From positions 1 through 24,118 of the forward strand of contig NYZA01000173.1 in assembly GCA_002686955.1 (NCBI GenBank): a stretch of DNA of 24,118 nucleotides, given 5' to 3'. The position numbers and the translations under genes were made by a program. The notes below the pieces were generated by a model, which saw only the letters and a program-made list of their open reading frames with translations, was not told the DNA's origin and ran no database searches. Positions 3,450 through 23,258 of this stretch are shown one piece after another. Position 1 is the stretch's first letter. Every line of letters starts with the position of its first letter. This DNA comes from Gemmatimonadota bacterium. GTDB taxonomy: Bacteria > GCA-2686955.

Positions 3450-4532
3450 ATGCGAACGATTGCGATTGCGAATCAGAAGGGTGGATGCGGCAAGACGACG
3501 ACGGCGATAAACCTCGCCTGGGAACTCTCGAATCGAGACAGACGGACGCTTGTCGTCGATATGGATCCCCAAGGGCACGTTGCGATCGGATTCGGGCTGG
3601 ATACCAGTGATCCGCGCGGAACCCTGTTCAGCCTGCTCCTTGAAGAGGATCCGGTTACCAGGCTCGACACACTTCTTTGCGAGGTGGAGGAGGATCTGTT
3701 CGTCGTCCCTTCGACTCTGCAGCTGACCATGCTCGAGCAGCGCCTGGTCGGCAAGAAGCACCGTGAAAGCCGTCTCTCGTCGGTCTTGCGCGATATGGAG
3801 GAACGATTCGACTACGTCCTTGTCGACAGTCCGCCGAATCTGGGAATGCTGACGTTCAATGCGCTCTTCGCGTGTGAAGAGATCGTCATTCCGGTCGAGG
3901 CGAGCGTGTACTCAGTCGAGGGCCTGTCTCGCCTCATGGAGACGGTGAAACTGGTCGAAGAGCATGCCGGGCACGAGAAGTCGGTGAGAATTTTGAGAAC
4001 GAGTCACGATCGCCGCACGCGCTACGCAAGAGCGATCGGTGACCGTCTGATCGAGACCTATTCGGGCCAGGTCTACGAAACGCCGATTTCTAGAAGCGTG
4101 CGCTTCCGCGAGGCCGCCGAGCGGGGCGGTGCGATCGGGGCGCTCTATCCTCGGTCGAGAGGCTCGGCGGACTATTCGTCCTTGGCGGCGGATGTGTTGC
4201 GCTCCGAAGACTCGGCCTCGGCGAGAGCCGAATCGAATCGGCAAGCTCTCGAATCGCAACACCCGATCGGTGAGCGAGTGCTCTTCACCTTCGCGATGCC
4301 TGAAGCGAGCGACGTTCGACTCGTGGGCGATTTCAACAACTGGGATCCTTCGGGTGTGCCGATGACCAAGGGGCTCGACGGAGTCTGGACCGGTACGGTC
4401 TCTCTCGAACCAGGCGCTTACCAGTATCGTTTCCTTGCCGACGGCCGCTGGCATCGCGATCCCAAGAACACCCGGGTAGTCGAAAACGCCTACGGTGGCC
4501 GGAACTCTCTGGTGGAGGTGGGGATAGGGTAG
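3450..4532 (+). CDS. ParA-family ATPase fused to a C-terminal CBM48/AMPK-beta glycogen-binding domain
   Basis: This 360-residue protein has two modules. Residues 1-250 form a complete ParA ATPase. The deviant Walker A is KGGCGKTT (K10, K15), Walker A' is VVDMDPQG, Walker B is YVLVDSPPN, and the C-terminal ParA signature FREAAERG...YPRSRGSADY is present. A polar linker (about 250-268) leads to a CBM48/AMPK-beta-type module (about 270-358). The glucan-contacting positions are conserved: FNNW with W298, YQYRF, GRW with W334, a DP pair, and N352. ParA proteins bind non-specific DNA in the ATP state and position cargo by gradients, and CBM48 modules bind glycogen or starch, so the fusion suggests a cargo-positioning ATPase for glycogen. 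That role is inference. The ATG at 3450 has a strong GAGGAG site. No parB homologue is visible nearby. The next gene starts 5 bp downstream. Confidence 0.93.
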   Translation: MRTIAIANQKGGCGKTTTAINLAWELSNRDRRTLVVDMDPQGHVAIGFGLDTSDPRGTLFSLLLEEDPVTRLDTLLCEVEEDLFVVPSTLQLTMLEQRLVGKKHRESRLSSVLRDMEERFDYVLVDSPPNLGMLTFNALFACEEIVIPVEASVYSVEGLSRLMETVKLVEEHAGHEKSVRILRTSHDRRTRYARAIGDRLIETYSGQVYETPISRSVRFREAAERGGAIGALYPRSRGSADYSSLAADVLRSEDSASARAESNRQALESQHPIGERVLFTFAMPEASDVRLVGDFNNWDPSGVPMTKGLDGVWTGTVSLEPGAYQYRFLADGRWHRDPKNTRVVENAYGGRNSLVEVGIG

Positions 4533-4537
4533 CGAGA

Positions 4538-5506
4538 GTGACGAATCCCGGATCGGCCGAGATCGCTCGGCTCTACTTCTCGACGCCGGATGCCGGACAA
4601 GCGCCGGCGCCGGGACTCGTGGTTTGTATCCCATCGTGGGAGCAGCCGCGCCTCTGTTTCGAGGACGTAGCGTCGACGATCTCGTCCTGGGGCATACCCT
4701 CGTCGGTCATGGGAGAAGGTGCGAGCTCTGAGATCGGCGATTCGGGTTTGACTCTGTGGCCCGCCGCGGTCGACACGCTCCGAGAGTGGCCAGGCGCCCC
4801 CGGAGCCTATTTTGTCGCCATCTCTTGCGCCGATCGCGAAGCCCTTGTCGCGGGATACGAGTTGGCCCGAAGCATCTCGACCCAAGCTCCAACGGGCGTC
4901 TGGCTCTGGGCCGAGTCGCGCCCCTCCCTGGTTCGAGCCATGGAGGGGTTTCGATCGCTCTGGAACGAGCATGGGGGCTCGACCCCTTTGGCGCTCTCGG
5001 GCGCCTGCGGCTTGGTGCACGAGTCCTCGGCGAGATCGATTCTGCGAATCTGCGGGCTCGTGGAGCGCGCCGACGCCGGGGAAGGGAATGCGCCGGCGGA
5101 TCCGAGCCGCGGCATGTCGCCGATCGACGTGGTACATGTCGACCGCCCCGCGGCCGGGCAGGTTTCCGTGCTACACGCGTCCACGCCGGCTCGTGAGCTC
5201 TGCGAGTACGCCCGTGCGCTCTCGCCCGAGGTGCGGATCGCGCACGAAGGGACCGATCTGAACATCTTTCTGCCCGGCCTGAAGCGTTGCACGATCATTT
5301 CGCTCGAGGATCTGACGACGGTGCACGTGGCCGAGGAAGCGATGATCCTCACCAGCGCGACCCTGTCCGATGCTTGCCTGTGGCTGTCGAGGCTCGCCGG
5401 TGACGCGGATGCCGCGATCGGCGTGAAGGCAATCTGGACACCGCTCTCCATCGCGGAGATGGCCGGCGCAGCCGCCTTGTCGAGGAGGGTTACGATCGGC
5501 TCCTAG
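4538..5506 (+). CDS. Unrecognised 322-residue protein, co-transcribed with the ParA-CBM48 gene
   Basis: I do not recognise a family. The GTG at 4538 follows the ParA-CBM48 stop by five bases, and the GGTGGAGGTGGGG just upstream can serve as ribosome binding site, so translation is probably coupled. The protein has no signal peptide, no clear transmembrane helix and no cysteine cluster. It looks like a soluble alpha/beta protein with alternating hydrophobic stretches, such as GLVVCIPSW, GAYFVAISCADREA, CTIISLEDLTTVHVAEEAMILTS near the C-terminus and a linker of low complexity around residues 185-195. Because it always follows the ATPase here, it could be a ParB/McdB-like partner or regulator of it, but nothing in the sequence proves this. 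Coding character is good throughout. Confidence 0.78.
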   Translation: MTNPGSAEIARLYFSTPDAGQAPAPGLVVCIPSWEQPRLCFEDVASTISSWGIPSSVMGEGASSEIGDSGLTLWPAAVDTLREWPGAPGAYFVAISCADREALVAGYELARSISTQAPTGVWLWAESRPSLVRAMEGFRSLWNEHGGSTPLALSGACGLVHESSARSILRICGLVERADAGEGNAPADPSRGMSPIDVVHVDRPAAGQVSVLHASTPARELCEYARALSPEVRIAHEGTDLNIFLPGLKRCTIISLEDLTTVHVAEEAMILTSATLSDACLWLSRLAGDADAAIGVKAIWTPLSIAEMAGAAALSRRVTIGS

Positions 5507-15872: not shown

Positions 15873-16829
15873 GTGCAATACCGATACCTTGGCAAGAGCG
15901 GACTCAGGATCAGCAATCTGGCTCTCGGAAGCTGGCTCACCTACGGATCGAAGGTCGATGTCGGTGGCACGCGATCGTGTATCGATGCAGCGCTAGACGC
16001 GGGTGTGAACTTCATCGATACGGCCGATGTGTACAGCTTTGGCGACGCGGAGAAGGTCTTGGGACGGGCATTGGAAGGACGCGCTCGATCCCATCTGGTG
16101 TTGGCGACCAAGTGTTTCTTCCCGATGAGCGACGATCCGAACGATCGCGGGCTATCGAGAAAGCACATGGTGGAGTCGGCCGATGCGAGCCTCGGGCGCC
16201 TGCGAACCGACTACATCGATCTCTATCAGTGCCATCGCTTCGATGAGCGTTCCCCCTTGGCTGAGCTGGTGCATACGATCGGTCTGCTCATGAACCGAGG
16301 GAAGATCCTCTACTGGGGAGTAAGCTGCTGGAGCGCGGAACAGATCCGCGAGGTGTGCCGGCTCTGCGATTCGATGGGCGTTCCACGTCCGATTTCGAAT
16401 CAGCCTCCGTACAATCTGCTCGAGCGGGGAATCGAGGAATCGGTGGTGCCGGCCTCGATTGAAGAGGGGCTGGGGCAGGTGGTCTTCAGCCCCTTGGCGC
16501 AGGGGATGTTGACGGGCAAGTATGAGAAGGGATCGATCCCGGAAGGGAGCCGGGCGTCGGAAGAACGGGACGGGGTGTGGCTGCGGCCATGGATGCGCGA
16601 AGAGGTGTTCGAGGCGGTCGACCGGGTCCGGGAGGTGGCGGACGAGCTGGGAACGACGCTCGCGCGGTTGGCGCTGGCCTGGTGCGCCCACAAGCCGGGG
16701 ATCGATTCGGTGGTTTTCGGCGCGTCGTCGGTCAGGCAGGTGGAAGAGAATGCCGCGGCCGCGGAAGTGTCGCTATCGGATGAGGCGGTGGAGCGGGTCG
16801 AGGCGGCTGTGGGGGGGGTGCGCCTGTAG
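15873..16829 (+). CDS. Aldo/keto reductase (Kv-beta/YghZ-like)
   Basis: This 318-residue NADPH-dependent (beta/alpha)8 oxidoreductase has the full catalytic tetrad: D49 (FIDTADVYS), Y54, K80 (ATKCFF) and H121 (YQCHRFD). The sequence pattern MQYRYLGKSGLRISNLALGSW and the segment NQPPYNLLERGIE match the Kv-channel-beta/YghZ branch, which reduces aldehydes such as methylglyoxal. The actual substrate here is unknown. The GTG at 15873 is chosen because it gives the family N-terminus and has GGGGA five bases upstream; an upstream extension lies inside the preceding gene. Third gene of the plus-strand cluster, it converges on the amylase gene with a 29-bp gap. Confidence 0.93.
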   Translation: MQYRYLGKSGLRISNLALGSWLTYGSKVDVGGTRSCIDAALDAGVNFIDTADVYSFGDAEKVLGRALEGRARSHLVLATKCFFPMSDDPNDRGLSRKHMVESADASLGRLRTDYIDLYQCHRFDERSPLAELVHTIGLLMNRGKILYWGVSCWSAEQIREVCRLCDSMGVPRPISNQPPYNLLERGIEESVVPASIEEGLGQVVFSPLAQGMLTGKYEKGSIPEGSRASEERDGVWLRPWMREEVFEAVDRVREVADELGTTLARLALAWCAHKPGIDSVVFGASSVRQVEENAAAAEVSLSDEAVERVEAAVGGVRL

Positions 16830-16858
16830 ATGGCGGGGAATGAAGCTGGGCGCGCGGG

Positions 16859-19288
16859 CTACTCGGAGCCCGGCAGAAACCGGAGGACGCGCGCCGAGAC
16901 CGGTGGGACTGTGAGAACAGCATCGCCGTGTTCGAGAAAGAGCTCTTCGCCCGAGAGCAGGTCGCGAGCGCGCGGCGCCCTGCCCGCGGTGTCGGTCCGG
17001 ATGGGTCTCGTATCGACTTGTCGAGAGCCATCGGCGCGATTGAGCAACACAATTATCCGTTCCAAGGGATGGTTGCGCTCGAAGACGAGCAGATCGTCCT
17101 CGGCGAGCAGGAGCTCGAAATCGCCGCGCCGCAGGGCGATGTGCTCGCGGCGGAGCGCGGTCCAGCGGCGGGTCTCTCGCAGATGGGCACGCTCTTCCGG
17201 CGTGAGCTCGGCACCGAAGCGCATCGGTCGGCGGTTGTCGGGGTCGCCGGCGCCGGCCATGGCGATCTCGTCGCCGTAGTAGAGGACCGGCAGGCCGGGA
17301 GCGGTCAGGATCCAGGCGAGAAAGAGCTGGACGCGGCGGAGGGTGAGGGGGTGATCGTTGCGGAGCGGCTCGGTCCAGCCCAGCTCTTTGTCGTCGGCGC
17401 CGGGAGGGATGTCCCCGTCGGCGAACGAAGCGAAACGGACCTGGTCGTGGGAGTCGATCAGGTTGCCCATCAGGTGTCCCGCGCCGAAATGGCGCCAGGC
17501 GGTCTGCATGCGGCGGCCGACTTCGCCCATCGATCGGGTCGTGTCGAGCAGAGCGGCGCGCACGATGTAGTAGGTCGAGAAATCGAACTGGGCGTTCTGC
17601 TGGCCCGGATTGACGTAGGAGGCGACCAACTCGTCCGATCCGAAGGTCTCGCCGATCTGGAACACGCGCCGGCCCCGTTTCGGCTCGACGCGGCGGGCGA
17701 TTGCGCCGGTCAGCACCCGCCAGAAGCGGTGCGGCACATGCTTGGTCGCGTCGTGGCGGAAACCGTCGGCGCCGCTCTCTTCGAGCCACCAGAGCGCATC
17801 GTCCACCGAGGCCCTGAGCGCGTCATCGGAGCCCATGTAGTCGAAGGAAGGCAGATAGGGCTCGAACCAGGTGGTGAGACGCTGCTCGTCGAAAAGGCGC
17901 AGGTTCGGCCTCCCGTCGGGCAGGAGCAGATCGCCGAACCACTCAGGGTGCTCGGAGAAGTAGGGATGGTCCTGGTGCACGTGGTTGGTGACCTGGTCGA
18001 GCAGGACCGCCATGCCGCGGCCGTGGGCGGTGCCGACGAGATCGCGCAGGGCCTCGATTCCGCCGAAGCGGGGCTCGGCGGCGCGGGGGGCGGTCGGCCA
18101 GTAGCCGTGGTAGCCGCTGTAGAAGCGGTGCGGGGGCGGATGCTCTCGGTAGGCGTTCGCGGGGGCGCGGGAGACCGGAGAGATCCAGAGGGCGTCGACG
18201 GAGAGGGAGTCGAAGTAGCCGCTCTCGATCGCCCAACGCACGCCCTGGAGATCGCCACCTAGCCAGTTGGCTCGAGGGGCGAGCTCAGGGTGCGTCACGG
18301 GCGCGTCGTTCCGAGGGTCGCCGTTGCGGAAGCGGTCGGTGACGAGGGAGTAGAGGATGGCGTCGCGCCAGCGGAAGTTGGAGCTCTTCCCGGCGCTTGG
18401 CGAGGGGCCGGAGCCCGCGGGTCGGCCCGCGTCGAGGTCGAGGCGGAGCAGGTTGGAGTGCGCCGGGGGTGCGTCGTAGATGAGGCGCAGGGTATGGCGG
18501 CCTTGGCGCCATTTCGATGCGAGATCGTCGCTTAGCTCGATGGCGAAGCCGGTTGACTGGGGGTGGATCGCGGCGGGGGGGAGGAGCGCGTCATCGAAGA
18601 GGGCGATGAGCCGGGGCGCGGCGTCGGGTGCGTCTGCCCGATAGAGGCGGATATCGAGGCGCGCGGCGTCGGGCGGGAGGGCGGTCCACGGTCCGAAGCG
18701 GAGACGCGGCGGGGTCCCCGTGCTCAGCGGGGGGACAATCAGCAGATTGTTGAATCCGCCGAATCCGTTCGGCACCCGTTCGGATGCTGTGGGGTCCAGC
18801 CTCTCCTTGCCGTCGACCCAGAATTTGTACTCGTAGCGACCGGGGACTAGCGGGACGGTTCGTTCCCACCAGCCGGTGCGGTTTGCGTCGGCCAGGGGGG
18901 TCGATTCGCGGTTCCAGCGATTCATCGTCCCAAAAAGAAAGACCGATTCGACCGATTCGGCGCCGGTGTCGAGCCGGAAGAGGACGGGGCGCTTCGGGGC
19001 GGCGATGACGGGGAGGGTGAGAGGGCGATCGTCGAGGCGAAGGCGGGGGAGGCGGATGCCGCGTTCGGTGGGGGGGAGCTCGATGCGCAGTGCGCCCGAT
19101 TCGAGGGGGGCGATGAGCAGGCCGGCGGGGTCGATGACGCGCACCGATGACGCACCGCCGGGGACGAGGTCGGCGGGGTGGAGGGTGTCGGGGATGCCCG
19201 GGGTGAGCCGGAGGATCGGGGGCGGGTCGGGGGAGAGAAGCGGCGCGAGGGCGAGGGTCAGGGAGAGAGGCGCGGTCAGGGGGACCAT
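16859..19288 (-). CDS. Exported GH13 alpha-amylase family enzyme with CBM48-like domain
   Basis: This 809-residue glycoside hydrolase probably cleaves alpha-1,4-glucans in the periplasm or outside. A signal peptide (1-20, [16 protein letters not shown]) is followed by a beta domain and a CBM48/AMPK-beta-like module (about 100-185; GTMNRW at 120-125, [18 protein letters not shown]). A second beta domain (about 200-290) and the GH13 barrel (about 304-700) follow. Catalytic regions are intact: DQVTNH (431-436), GFRHDATKH with nucleophile D513, IGETF with acid/base E547, and IDSHD with D615. A C-terminal beta domain ends the chain. The ATG at 19288 overlaps the hflX stop by 13 bases; the frame stays open far upstream only because of high G+C. 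The substrate could be glycogen, starch or maltodextrin. Confidence 0.93.
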
Positions 19289-21299: not shown

Positions 21300-21406
21300 T
21301 TGTAGATACATAAACACATGGGGGCGATCGGCTTCGACGAGGTCGGTGCTCCACGAGCAGCATGTCGAGTTGCCTCAGACTCGTAAAACGGGGGTTTTTC
21401 ACAACT

Positions 21407-21436
21407 GCCGACAACCAATTGGCAATGGCTGCGTAA
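21407..21436 (+). other. ssrA: tmRNA tag reading frame (ADNQLAMAA-stop)
   Basis: From the resume codon GCC at 21407 the frame reads Ala-Asp-Asn-Gln-Leu-Ala-Met-Ala-Ala and stops at TAA (21434-21436). The hydrophobic end AMAA fits the ClpXP-type degradation tags of other bacteria (LAA-like ends). Nine codons is slightly shorter than the ten of E. coli. The resume codon is inferred from frame and position. Confidence 0.8.
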
Positions 21437-21641
21437 TCACGCGGTCCGTCTCGCCACCGTCGACCCGGCGGAGGTGGTAGAGGCGACGACAATCCGGGAC
21501 GACGCCCTTCTCGAGCCAGCGGGAGAAGGAGCGTCGCAAGCACCGCCGGCTGGCCAAGCGGAATCCCGTCCACCGGAGCCCGCGAGGCGAGATCAAAGGT
21601 GGAACAAACATGTAGCGGTTCGTGGTTATCCGGTTTCGGAC

Positions 21642-21669
21642 GCGGGTTCGATTCCCGCCGCCTCCACCA
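21642..21669 (+). other. Probable attachment-site region at the ssrA 3' end
   Basis: The T arm and acceptor end of ssrA form the usual core for tmRNA-specific tyrosine recombinases. The integrase gene begins 57 bp beyond it, as in known ssrA islands. The gene end is intact, so this is the junction that regenerates ssrA. I found no second copy of this sequence later in the window; the other junction should lie beyond 24118. Confidence 0.55.
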
Positions 21670-21725: not shown

Positions 21726-22850
21726 CTAGCCGAAGTCTGCATTCCTCCTCTCTGAGGCTCGCTCCACGATCGCTCCACGGCCCTGATCGGCTTGGGCATT
21801 CTCGAGCATGCGGACGGCGTCGTCCACGGCGCGAGGGCTGAGGTGCATGTATCGCTGGGTGGTAGACAGATCCGCGTGCCCCGCGAGCTCCTGGATGGAC
21901 CGCGCTGGGACCCCGGCCATGGCGAGGTGAGAGCAGTACGTGTGCCGGAGCACATGTACGCTCCTGTTGGCCAAGTTGGCGAGGCGAGCGGCCCGGAGGA
22001 CCAGGTTCCTCACGATCTTCTGAGTGAGGGGCTGATCGTCTGACCTGCAGAGGACCCGTGGGCTTCGGAGATGCCTGTGGGTCCGCAGCGTTGAACCGAG
22101 CCTGGCGGTCATCGGAACGAACCTCGGTCGACCGCCCTTCGGCGCGGTGACATGACCTTTCCATTCAGACCGCTCCACCTTCAGGCGGTCCCTCCGGAAA
22201 TCCACGTCCGTCCACTCCAGCGCCATCATCTCCCCGCAACGGAGTCCGGCCTCTCCTCCGAGGAGGACGATGAGGTGGGCCTCAGCACTCACCTCGCGGG
22301 AGGCGCCGACCAGCCACTCGTACTCCTCGAAGTCATGGAACTCGGCCTCCGAGCGTGCAATGGGCAGGAGGTGAATCGAGCAGGGCATTCGCTCGATTTC
22401 TCCCCACTCCACGGCCACCTTCAACATCTTGGAGAGCACGCTCAAGATGTTGTTCGAAGTGCTCCGGGCTTTCTTCGCCAGGTGGGACTTGAGCCGCTGG
22501 ACGTGCTCGTCGGTGATTTCGTCGAGGCGTCTGGAGCCCAGGAAGGGCACGAGGTGCACCCTCAAGATGGTCTCCTTCGCCGCCACTCCCGAGGGCTTGT
22601 GTCTGTTGGCCCTGGCCCAGCCTTCGACAAAACGCGGGGCGAATTCGGCGAGCGTGGGGGGCACCCGTCGGGGCTTCACCAGGCCGTTCATCAGGAGTTC
22701 CCGCTCCCTGGCCTGGCCCCACCTGAGTGCCGCGGACCGCGACGAGACCGGCGCCTTCCTCCGCTCACGGATCTTCTGGCCATCCGGCATCAGCAGGATG
22801 ATGTCAACCTCCCATCCGCGACCATCGCGGAATCGGACAGAAACACTCAT
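21726..22850 (-). CDS. int: Tyrosine recombinase/phage-type integrase
   Basis: This 374-residue site-specific integrase has an N-terminal arm-binding region, a SAM-like core-binding domain (about 65-150) and a C-terminal catalytic domain (about 170-345). All catalytic residues are present: R204 (GLRCGE), K238 (APKGG), H299 and R302 (HVLRH), H325 (GHADLSTTQRY) and nucleophile Y334. It would cut and join DNA at the ssrA 3' end. The ATG at 22850 has AAAGGAG six bases upstream and overlaps the HTH gene stop (ATGA). An upstream in-frame start at 22877 lies inside that gene. The start codon and ribosome binding site sit in a perfect hairpin (22847-22873). It converges on ssrA. Confidence 0.95.
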   Translation of the reverse strand: MSVSVRFRDGRGWEVDIILLMPDGQKIRERRKAPVSSRSAALRWGQARERELLMNGLVKPRRVPPTLAEFAPRFVEGWARANRHKPSGVAAKETILRVHLVPFLGSRRLDEITDEHVQRLKSHLAKKARSTSNNILSVLSKMLKVAVEWGEIERMPCSIHLLPIARSEAEFHDFEEYEWLVGASREVSAEAHLIVLLGGEAGLRCGEMMALEWTDVDFRRDRLKVERSEWKGHVTAPKGGRPRFVPMTARLGSTLRTHRHLRSPRVLCRSDDQPLTQKIVRNLVLRAARLANLANRSVHVLRHTYCSHLAMAGVPARSIQELAGHADLSTTQRYMHLSPRAVDDAVRMLENAQADQGRGAIVERASERRNADFG

Positions 22851-22873
22851 CGCCAGCTCCTTTCTGGCGATGA
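22847..22873 (-). promoter_or_regulatory. Hairpin enclosing the integrase ribosome binding site and start codon
   Basis: In the mRNA sense the arms TCATCGCCAG and CTGGCGATGA are perfectly complementary (10 bp). The 7-nt loop AAAGGAG is the Shine-Dalgarno sequence, and the integrase ATG lies in the 3' arm. When folded it could limit initiation. A ribosome finishing the upstream gene would open it, coupling integrase synthesis to the HTH gene. The structure is read directly from the sequence; the regulatory role is inference. Confidence 0.7.
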
Positions 22874-23179
22874 CCAACGACTTGCGTCAATCCATGCTAC
22901 CAACTCCTCTCTGCGGAACAGGAGCTTTCTCCCGATGCGGGTGACGCCAGGAATGGCTCCGCGCTCAACCCGTTTGTACACAGCAGCCCGACTCGTGCGC
23001 AGGAGTTCCGCCACTTCGGCGGGGGTGAGAAGTAGGGGCAGGTCGGCCCAGTCGGCGGGAACGCGCTGGCCATCATCGGGTGCGCAGGGCGCGGAGGCCT
23101 GAGTAGCGGGGAGGACGTCGTCGGAACAGGAGGACGTCGGAGGGCGGGCGGAACGTGATCTCGGAGCTTCTCTCGGCAT
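22847..23179 (-). CDS. Helix-turn-helix DNA-binding protein, excisionase/MerR-like
   Basis: This 110-residue protein has a proline- and serine-rich N-terminal half and a C-terminal HTH_17/excisionase-type domain (about 49-98). The domain is LLTPAEVAELLRTSRAAVYK, then RVERGAIPGVTRIGRKLLFRREELVAW, with a winged-helix tip. Proteins of this kind act as recombination directionality factors or regulators next to integrase genes, so it may be the excisionase of this element. The ATG at 23179 has AAGGGG six bases upstream; an upstream ATG at 23221 is possible but weaker. The stop overlaps the integrase start by four bases. Confidence 0.85.
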   Translation of the reverse strand: MPREAPRSRSARPPTSSCSDDVLPATQASAPCAPDDGQRVPADWADLPLLLTPAEVAELLRTSRAAVYKRVERGAIPGVTRIGRKLLFRREELVAWIDASRWSSPERSWR

Positions 23180-23201
23180 GGCGAACCCCTTGAGGTTCGC
23201 C
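23180..23201 (-). promoter_or_regulatory. Hairpin at the HTH gene ribosome binding site
   Basis: In the mRNA sense GGCGAACC pairs with GGTTCGCC (8 bp) around the loop TCAAGG, and ATG follows immediately. The Shine-Dalgarno AAGGGG lies across the loop and 3' arm. This mirrors the integrase hairpin and could be a shared control feature. Confidence 0.55.
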
Positions 23202-23258
23202 CCACCCGGCTGCGGTTCCATGTGGCCCTGTTTCCCGAGAGATCCAGGGACTTCAGAA

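Follow-up and report, generated by a model that had tools for sequence, protein, structure and literature searches.

A ParA-type ATPase with a built-in AMPK-beta-like module and its usual partner: a possible role in the positioning or sensing of stored sugar polymers in bacteria

A wide range of bacterial cargoes is organised by ATPases of the ParA/MinD family, in which orphans without a known cargo or partner are numerous; partners typically make contact with these ATPases through an N-terminal peptide (PMC10241942). In ATPases of the Soj type, basic residues matter for DNA binding (PMC3778016). The positioning of bacterial organelles was reviewed in 2025 for carboxysomes, magnetosomes, PHB and polyphosphate granules, and glycogen distribution is not covered there (PMC13052382). 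On the carbohydrate side, the glycogen-binding domain (GBD) of AMPK-beta contacts its ligand through W100, K126, W133 and N150 (PMC4032982). Mutation of contact residues markedly lowers glycogen binding, and the domain is regulatory as well as targeting (PMC2642990).

The gene described here brings both families together in one protein. It lies at positions 3450..4532 on the plus strand of a 24,118-nucleotide stretch of a Gemmatimonadota genome (contig NYZA01000173.1), the whole of which is called the window below, and encodes 360 aa in a single unbroken frame with an ATG start and GGAG upstream. Its definition draws on Pfam and PDB matches, an AlphaFold2 model and homologues of the same architecture. 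The Soj-type ParA ATPase domain covers residues 1-250 (3450..4199, plus strand), as judged from Pfam AAA_31 (residues 1-172, E 1.1e-48, above the gathering score), a structural match to Soj and alignment with Soj-type ParAs. A predicted glucan-binding module of the AMPK-beta/CBM48 type occupies residues 283-357 (4296..4520, plus strand), where AMPK1_CBM (PF16561) matches residues 285-357 (E 3.9e-11, 43.5 bits vs a cut-off of 26.8) and CBM_48 (PF02922) also exceeds its cut-off (E 3.8e-9, 37.2 bits vs 22.4). Searched on its own with phmmer, the C-terminal stretch of 93 residues matches the AMPK-beta1 GBD in the PDB (1z0n, E 1.1e-8). The AlphaFold2 model, built on 31 homologues and with a mean pLDDT of 92, presents in order a ParA domain, a helix at residues 237-269 and a mostly beta domain at 275-357, the helix forming a predicted stalk between the two domains (4158..4256, plus strand). 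None of the NCBIfam equivalogs of ParA, BcsQ and MinD scored over its cut-off on the fusion protein. An earlier note on this DNA had proposed that a ParA ATPase is fused here to an AMPK-beta GBD; with these matches and its recurrence across phyla, the architecture is genuine and conserved.

A contig scan together with a search for relatives yielded 34 fusions including that of the window, nearly all of full length and spread over at least seven named phyla. The record labels are Nitrospirae, Rokubacteria, Latescibacterota, Acidobacteria, Planctomycetota (Phycisphaerae), Termititenax (Margulisiibacteriota) and Proteobacteria, the last of which comes from MAG names only. A sample of 198 genomes from Phycisphaerae, the class to which G076 belongs, gave 114 with a match that extends to the CBM end of the profile. 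The closest relative of the window fusion belongs to a genome of the same family (G001) and shares 53% identity. An artefact of frameshift or assembly is ruled out, because there are many independent full-length homologues, in 33 loci besides the window and in more than half of these Phycisphaerae genomes. In a tree of 86 ParA domains, all the CBM-fused ParAs and some CBM-less ParAs of Phycisphaerales form one group (support 92/86) separate from Soj-type outgroups, and we read the tree as placing the CBM at the ancestor of this clade. Resolution of its early splits is low, and between phyla the tree does not tell transfer from vertical descent. Within one Phycisphaerales branch, sugar-contact residues have been lost in L051, L072, L149, L158 and L159, and the whole module is absent in L059-L061, L063, L067, L069 and L071, with a separate loss in L068; the ParA and its partner, described below, persist in the clade that lost the module. 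Conserved lipoprotein-like genes lie downstream in this branch.

The ATPase domain carries the Walker A, A' and B motifs of the deviant Walker A ParA/MinD ATPases. All motifs quoted in the earlier note were found (KGGCGKTT at residues 10-17, VVDMDPQG at 35-42, VDSPP at 125-129, and PRSRG); the deviant Walker A, KGGCGKT (residues 10-16), is nearly invariant among the fusions, and DMDPQGH and VDSPP are present as well. In structural alignment (VIA-align), the ParA part is closest to Soj (9a6n; Z 36.9, rmsd 1.5 over 250 residues), followed by the Soj-DNA-Spo0J structure of H. pylori (8jmj, Z 35.3), McdA (Z 31) and MinD (Z 29). Alignment to Soj-type ParAs places R189 and R218 of the window protein at Soj DNA-binding positions; R189 is conserved in 69/87 fusions, and K or R stands at position 218 in 71/87. 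These positions point to a nucleoid role for the ParA-CBM protein.

Such likeness to Soj would also be seen in a ParA that serves the usual partition of a chromosome or plasmid and merely happens to carry an extra domain at its C-terminus, a reading that we regard as very improbable when set against several observations. The window's genome holds a separate canonical Soj with an adjoining ParB (L176), so the ParA-CBM protein is an additional ParA of that genome; the gene downstream of the fusion lacks a ParB domain; and the fused ParAs stand apart from the Soj outgroups in the tree. Plasmid origin was considered and ruled out, since in a comparison with plasmid records no match among the best 5000 extended over 80% of the query. 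A chromosomal system is the best reading of these data.

The predicted sugar site was compared across 88 non-redundant fusions: W298 (codon 4341..4343; AMPK-beta W100) is tryptophan in 87/88, R327 (4428..4430; AMPK-beta K126, a conservative change) is R or K in 85/88, W334 (4449..4451; AMPK-beta W133) is tryptophan in 82/88, and N352 (4503..4505; AMPK-beta N150) is asparagine in 72/87 and aspartate in 6, all four codons lying on the plus strand. The two sugar-stacking tryptophans named in the earlier note are accordingly in place and its terminal asparagine is N352, with the qualification that the K126 position holds an arginine. Ranked by conservation among the 75 module positions, W298 is 3rd, W334 12th, R327 13th and N352 22nd. 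Column entropy averages 1.93 bits over the module vs 3.16 bits over the linker (residues 251-274), the latter being the highest mean column entropy in the fusion protein. Strong constraint on the carbohydrate-contact residues, with a stalk free to vary, is well supported by these alignments, from which alpha-glucan binding by the module is inferred.

Homologues without the aromatic residues, which the earlier note had counted against its proposal, occur in one Phycisphaerales branch, where W334 is gone in five proteins. In these degenerate proteins (the five named above) W334 is kept in 0/5 and N352 in 1/5, while F295, Y326 and D337 are each kept in 5/5. This pattern of loss is what would be expected if the site had been maintained for binding and then released. 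A module that has given up sugar binding and acts as an E-set domain for protein interaction or oligomerisation is an unlikely alternative in our estimate. CBM48-type E-set domains are common in proteins not tested for binding, intact sites occur in genomes without GlgP and GH13 (two of them also without GH57), and the fusion shows no enrichment with alpha-glucan genes; these points have to be weighed against the rank of the AMPK glycogen-binding residues among the module's more conserved positions, and against a degenerate branch that loses precisely W334 and N352 with sister lineages that lose the whole module.

The genomic context of alpha-glucan metabolism was evaluated at two levels. Among the 34 fusion-carrying genomes, GlgP (TIGR02094) is present in 31 and GH57 likewise in 31, GlgA passes its cut-off in 12 and the GH13 branching enzyme (GlgB) in 13. 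A tie to classical GlgA/GlgB glycogen synthesis was therefore set aside, only about one third of carriers passing the curated cut-offs; several carrier lineages may use other alpha-glucan routes. The window's genome (84.5% complete) has GlgP, GH57 and, inside the window, a GH13 gene with its own AMPK1_CBM, and neither GlgA nor GlgB was found over cut-off in it. Co-occurrence with glg genes, which the earlier note had put forward as a check, holds for GlgP and GH57 in nearly all carriers and equally in non-carriers: within Phycisphaerae, 110/114 carriers vs 81/84 non-carriers have GlgP or GH57 (p = 1; no enrichment). Their co-occurrence with the fusion is uninformative, because they are as frequent without it; with both genes near-universal in the class, the power of the test is low. 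The fusion also occurs without GlgP or GH57 in four genomes (G170, G224, G270 and G277), two of which (G270 and G277) have no clear GH13 either, and the tryptophans are retained in some of these four carriers.

No recurrent alpha-glucan gene was seen near the fusion in the neighbourhoods examined, and among the listed Phycisphaerae matches the nearest GlgP on the same contig lies about 25 kb away. Since co-occurrence is uninformative and glucan genes do not adjoin the fusion, the glucan reading draws solely on the binding site. Glycogen granules as the cargo, the proposal of the earlier note, are weakened by the lack of enrichment, by the lack of a GlgP neighbour, by the failure of GlgA and the GH13 branching enzyme to exceed their cut-offs in the window's own genome and by a clade that keeps ParA and partner but no longer has the module. 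Apart from the partner, conserved neighbours were searched for as well and proved clade-specific only, for example a 3-dehydroquinate synthase gene upstream in one Phycisphaerales branch.

Several other features of the window and its relatives deserve mention. The GH13 gene, of the alpha-amylase/neopullulanase type (16773-18952, minus strand), carries its AMPK1_CBM at the N-terminus; it is encoded on the strand opposite to that of the ParA fusion, some 12 kb away, with no shared operon. Several tandem AMPK1_CBM-like modules matching the C-terminus of the query occur in three long ORFs (G030:C21:13240-15699, 989 aa; G026:C193:2181-3476, 604 aa; G013:C1:1475074-1476135, 1099 aa). A tmRNA gene (21320-21669, plus strand; tag ADNQLAMAA) is directly followed by a phage-type integrase gene (21726-22877, minus strand), near which an excisionase-like HTH_17 gene is found (22847-23221); an integrated element at the 3' end of the tmRNA gene is probable.

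Directly downstream of the fusion, the window carries a gene of 322 aa with a GTG start (4538..5506, plus strand), a candidate ParA partner whose placement and strand are those of a partner family elsewhere. Of 108 usable loci, defined as those with at least 1.2 kb downstream of the fusion, 57 have a member of this family (one HMM) directly downstream on the same strand, and 11 more, including the window, have a same-strand ORF at the same place. About 40 of the 108 have no adjoining partner; these belong mostly to one Phycisphaerae group (L034-L038, L042, L044, L058, L062 and kin). The gap between fusion and partner is typically -3 to +30 nt, and many partners either overlap the fusion stop by 4 nt or begin no more than 30 nt after it. 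The HMM spans Planctomycetota to Nitrospirota; seeded with Phycisphaerae sequences, it recovered genes from Nitrospirae and 'Proteobacteria' at E 1e-22 to 1e-40.

About 60 partner proteins share the N-terminal motif hxx[LI][AS][HD]LFL[SG], often preceded by basic residues, and the Rokubacteria version, KPLGRGLEDVSHLFLS, is close to RKVLGRGLSALIPP, the N-terminus of the ParB encoded in the window's own genome. The conserved LFLS-type helix resembles the ParA-activating peptide of ParB. The earlier note had envisaged an adaptor-free link between ATPase and cargo; this is doubtful because most loci have a dedicated, often overlapping downstream gene with a ParB-like N-terminal motif, and would perhaps apply in the partner-less Phycisphaerae group. 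In the window itself, the downstream protein starts with AEIARLYFST, a weak variant of the family motif, and is 25% identical to its G001 orthologue. Compared with the partner family by hhalign, it gave a probability under 1%, not significant, from only two sequences; the A3 profile matched it at E 2.6e-9, yet the protein is itself a member of A3. No Pfam domain, and hence no ParB HTH or ParB-N, was found in the downstream gene, whose product is a probable partner of ParA-CBM.

In the model of the L045 partner (pLDDT 82), the middle domain matches FlhG best (Z 13.1 and 16% identity over 178 residues) and FleN as well (Z 11), the fold matches listed spanning residues 82-266 only. No recognisable Walker A was found in the partners, a regular expression returning two stray GKT-type strings among 71 proteins. 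Because a MinD-like FlhG/FleN fold is combined with the lack of a recognisable Walker A, the partner is probably a pseudo-ATPase, a predicted MinD/FlhG-like fold without a P-loop. In Planctomycetota a C-terminal domain is fused to it. The partner of Rokubacteria is made of a body broadly like it, which also occurs as a separate gene in L039, L041, L043 and L046 (hhalign 94% between the two), with a weak link to the Planctomycetota C-terminus (hhalign 23-25%). This C-terminal domain is PD-(D/E)XK-like by eye only (EIDLLGVD...TVIDF), and Pfam gave no match even at E 10. The Rokubacteria and Acidobacteria partners (L027:9124-9786, L028:9180-9854, L030:7221-7817, L031:9135-9809, L033:9143-9793) consist of a LGRGLEDVSHLFLS motif and a body with EIDLLGVD-type strands, again PD-(D/E)XK-like by eye and without a Pfam match. 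In L037 (Acidobacteria), the ParA ORF continues into a partner-like C-terminus and the module is damaged; this is a possible natural ParA-partner fusion or, given the damage, perhaps the product of a deletion.

The likeness of the partner body to FlhG/FleN, whose known members act on regulators, also fits a glucan-sensing switch, in which binding of glycogen or maltodextrin would alter the ATPase activity or dimerisation as in AMPK, the module would carry no cargo, and ParA and partner would control division, gene expression or the activity of an enzyme. We consider this somewhat unlikely, though it has several points in its favour: the AMPK-beta GBD is itself regulatory, and the loss of the module from lineages that keep ParA and partner is in keeping with a sensor added on to the system. 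A MerR-type HTH gene, a candidate route to gene expression, stands directly upstream of the fusion in L032 (7440-7916), L039 (7346-7939), L041 (7347-7940), L043 (7380-7910) and L046 (517-1023); this neighbour is limited to few lineages, and the Soj-type DNA-binding positions suggest a nucleoid role instead.

The reading that we tentatively prefer, at somewhat less than an even chance, is a conserved chromosomal ParA system that couples alpha-glucan cargo through its built-in alpha-glucan-binding module. Good support exists for the architecture, for how widely it is conserved, for sugar-contact and DNA-binding positions that have stayed intact, and for a partner gene with its motif and predicted fold. 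From these we infer that ATP-bound ParA dimers would be held on the nucleoid by their Soj-type basic residues, while two AMPK-beta-type modules on helical stalks would hold an alpha-glucan, for instance in a glycogen-like particle, or an enzyme complex that bears glucan. The partner's N-terminal LFLS-type helix would enter the ParA dimer in the manner of ParB, McdB and MinE, and its insertion would lead to ATP hydrolysis and release, so that glucan-bound cargo would be spread or segregated over the nucleoid. The bolder version, a widespread bacterial system that tethers glycogen-like particles to the nucleoid by means of a ParA that binds the polymer directly, is rather doubtful.

A ParA system with a built-in carbohydrate module appears to be undescribed, as the earlier note had supposed: none was found in the open-access literature searched, where several searches were blunted by common words ('para', 'mind'). 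For a family rich in orphan ATPases, ParA-CBM offers a clue to the cargo built into the ATPase itself. It is found in more than half of the sampled Phycisphaerae and in several other phyla, and it brings a new partner family. If the bolder version is true, no earlier positioning ATPase would have a polysaccharide-binding domain of its own, and no machinery by which bacteria inherit or space glycogen would have been known before. A prediction is that the module by itself would bind maltoheptaose or glycogen by means of its two tryptophans.

Compared with known systems, ParA-CBM shares with Soj/ParA (parABS) the ATPase fold, the motifs, the R189/R218 positions and a candidate partner whose N-terminus carries a peptide of the LGRGL-like or LFLS type; it differs in its predicted C-terminal glucan-binding module, in a partner without the ParB HTH and in the presence of a separate parAB in the genome. 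With the AMPK-beta GBD (PF16561, a CBM48 relative) it has in common the fold family and the positions of W100, K126 (as R), W133 and N150, whereas the predicted module is joined here to a ParA ATPase and not to a kinase complex. BcsQ, the MinD-like ATPase of bacterial cellulose secretion, is a MinD/ParA-type ATPase tied to a glucan system, as is proposed for ParA-CBM; it has no CBM and belongs to the bcs operon for beta-glucan export, features of which were not seen for ParA-CBM. The partner's middle domain has the fold of FlhG/FleN, but lacks Walker A and is accompanied by an N-terminal motif and often by a C-terminal domain. Finally, McdA/McdB provides the parallel of an ATPase of the ParA family that has its own partner encoded next to it and, as proposed here, a non-DNA cargo, although McdA has no carbohydrate-binding domain and no microcompartment is involved in the present system: where McdB brings the carboxysome cargo, the ParA-CBM ATPase may do so itself.
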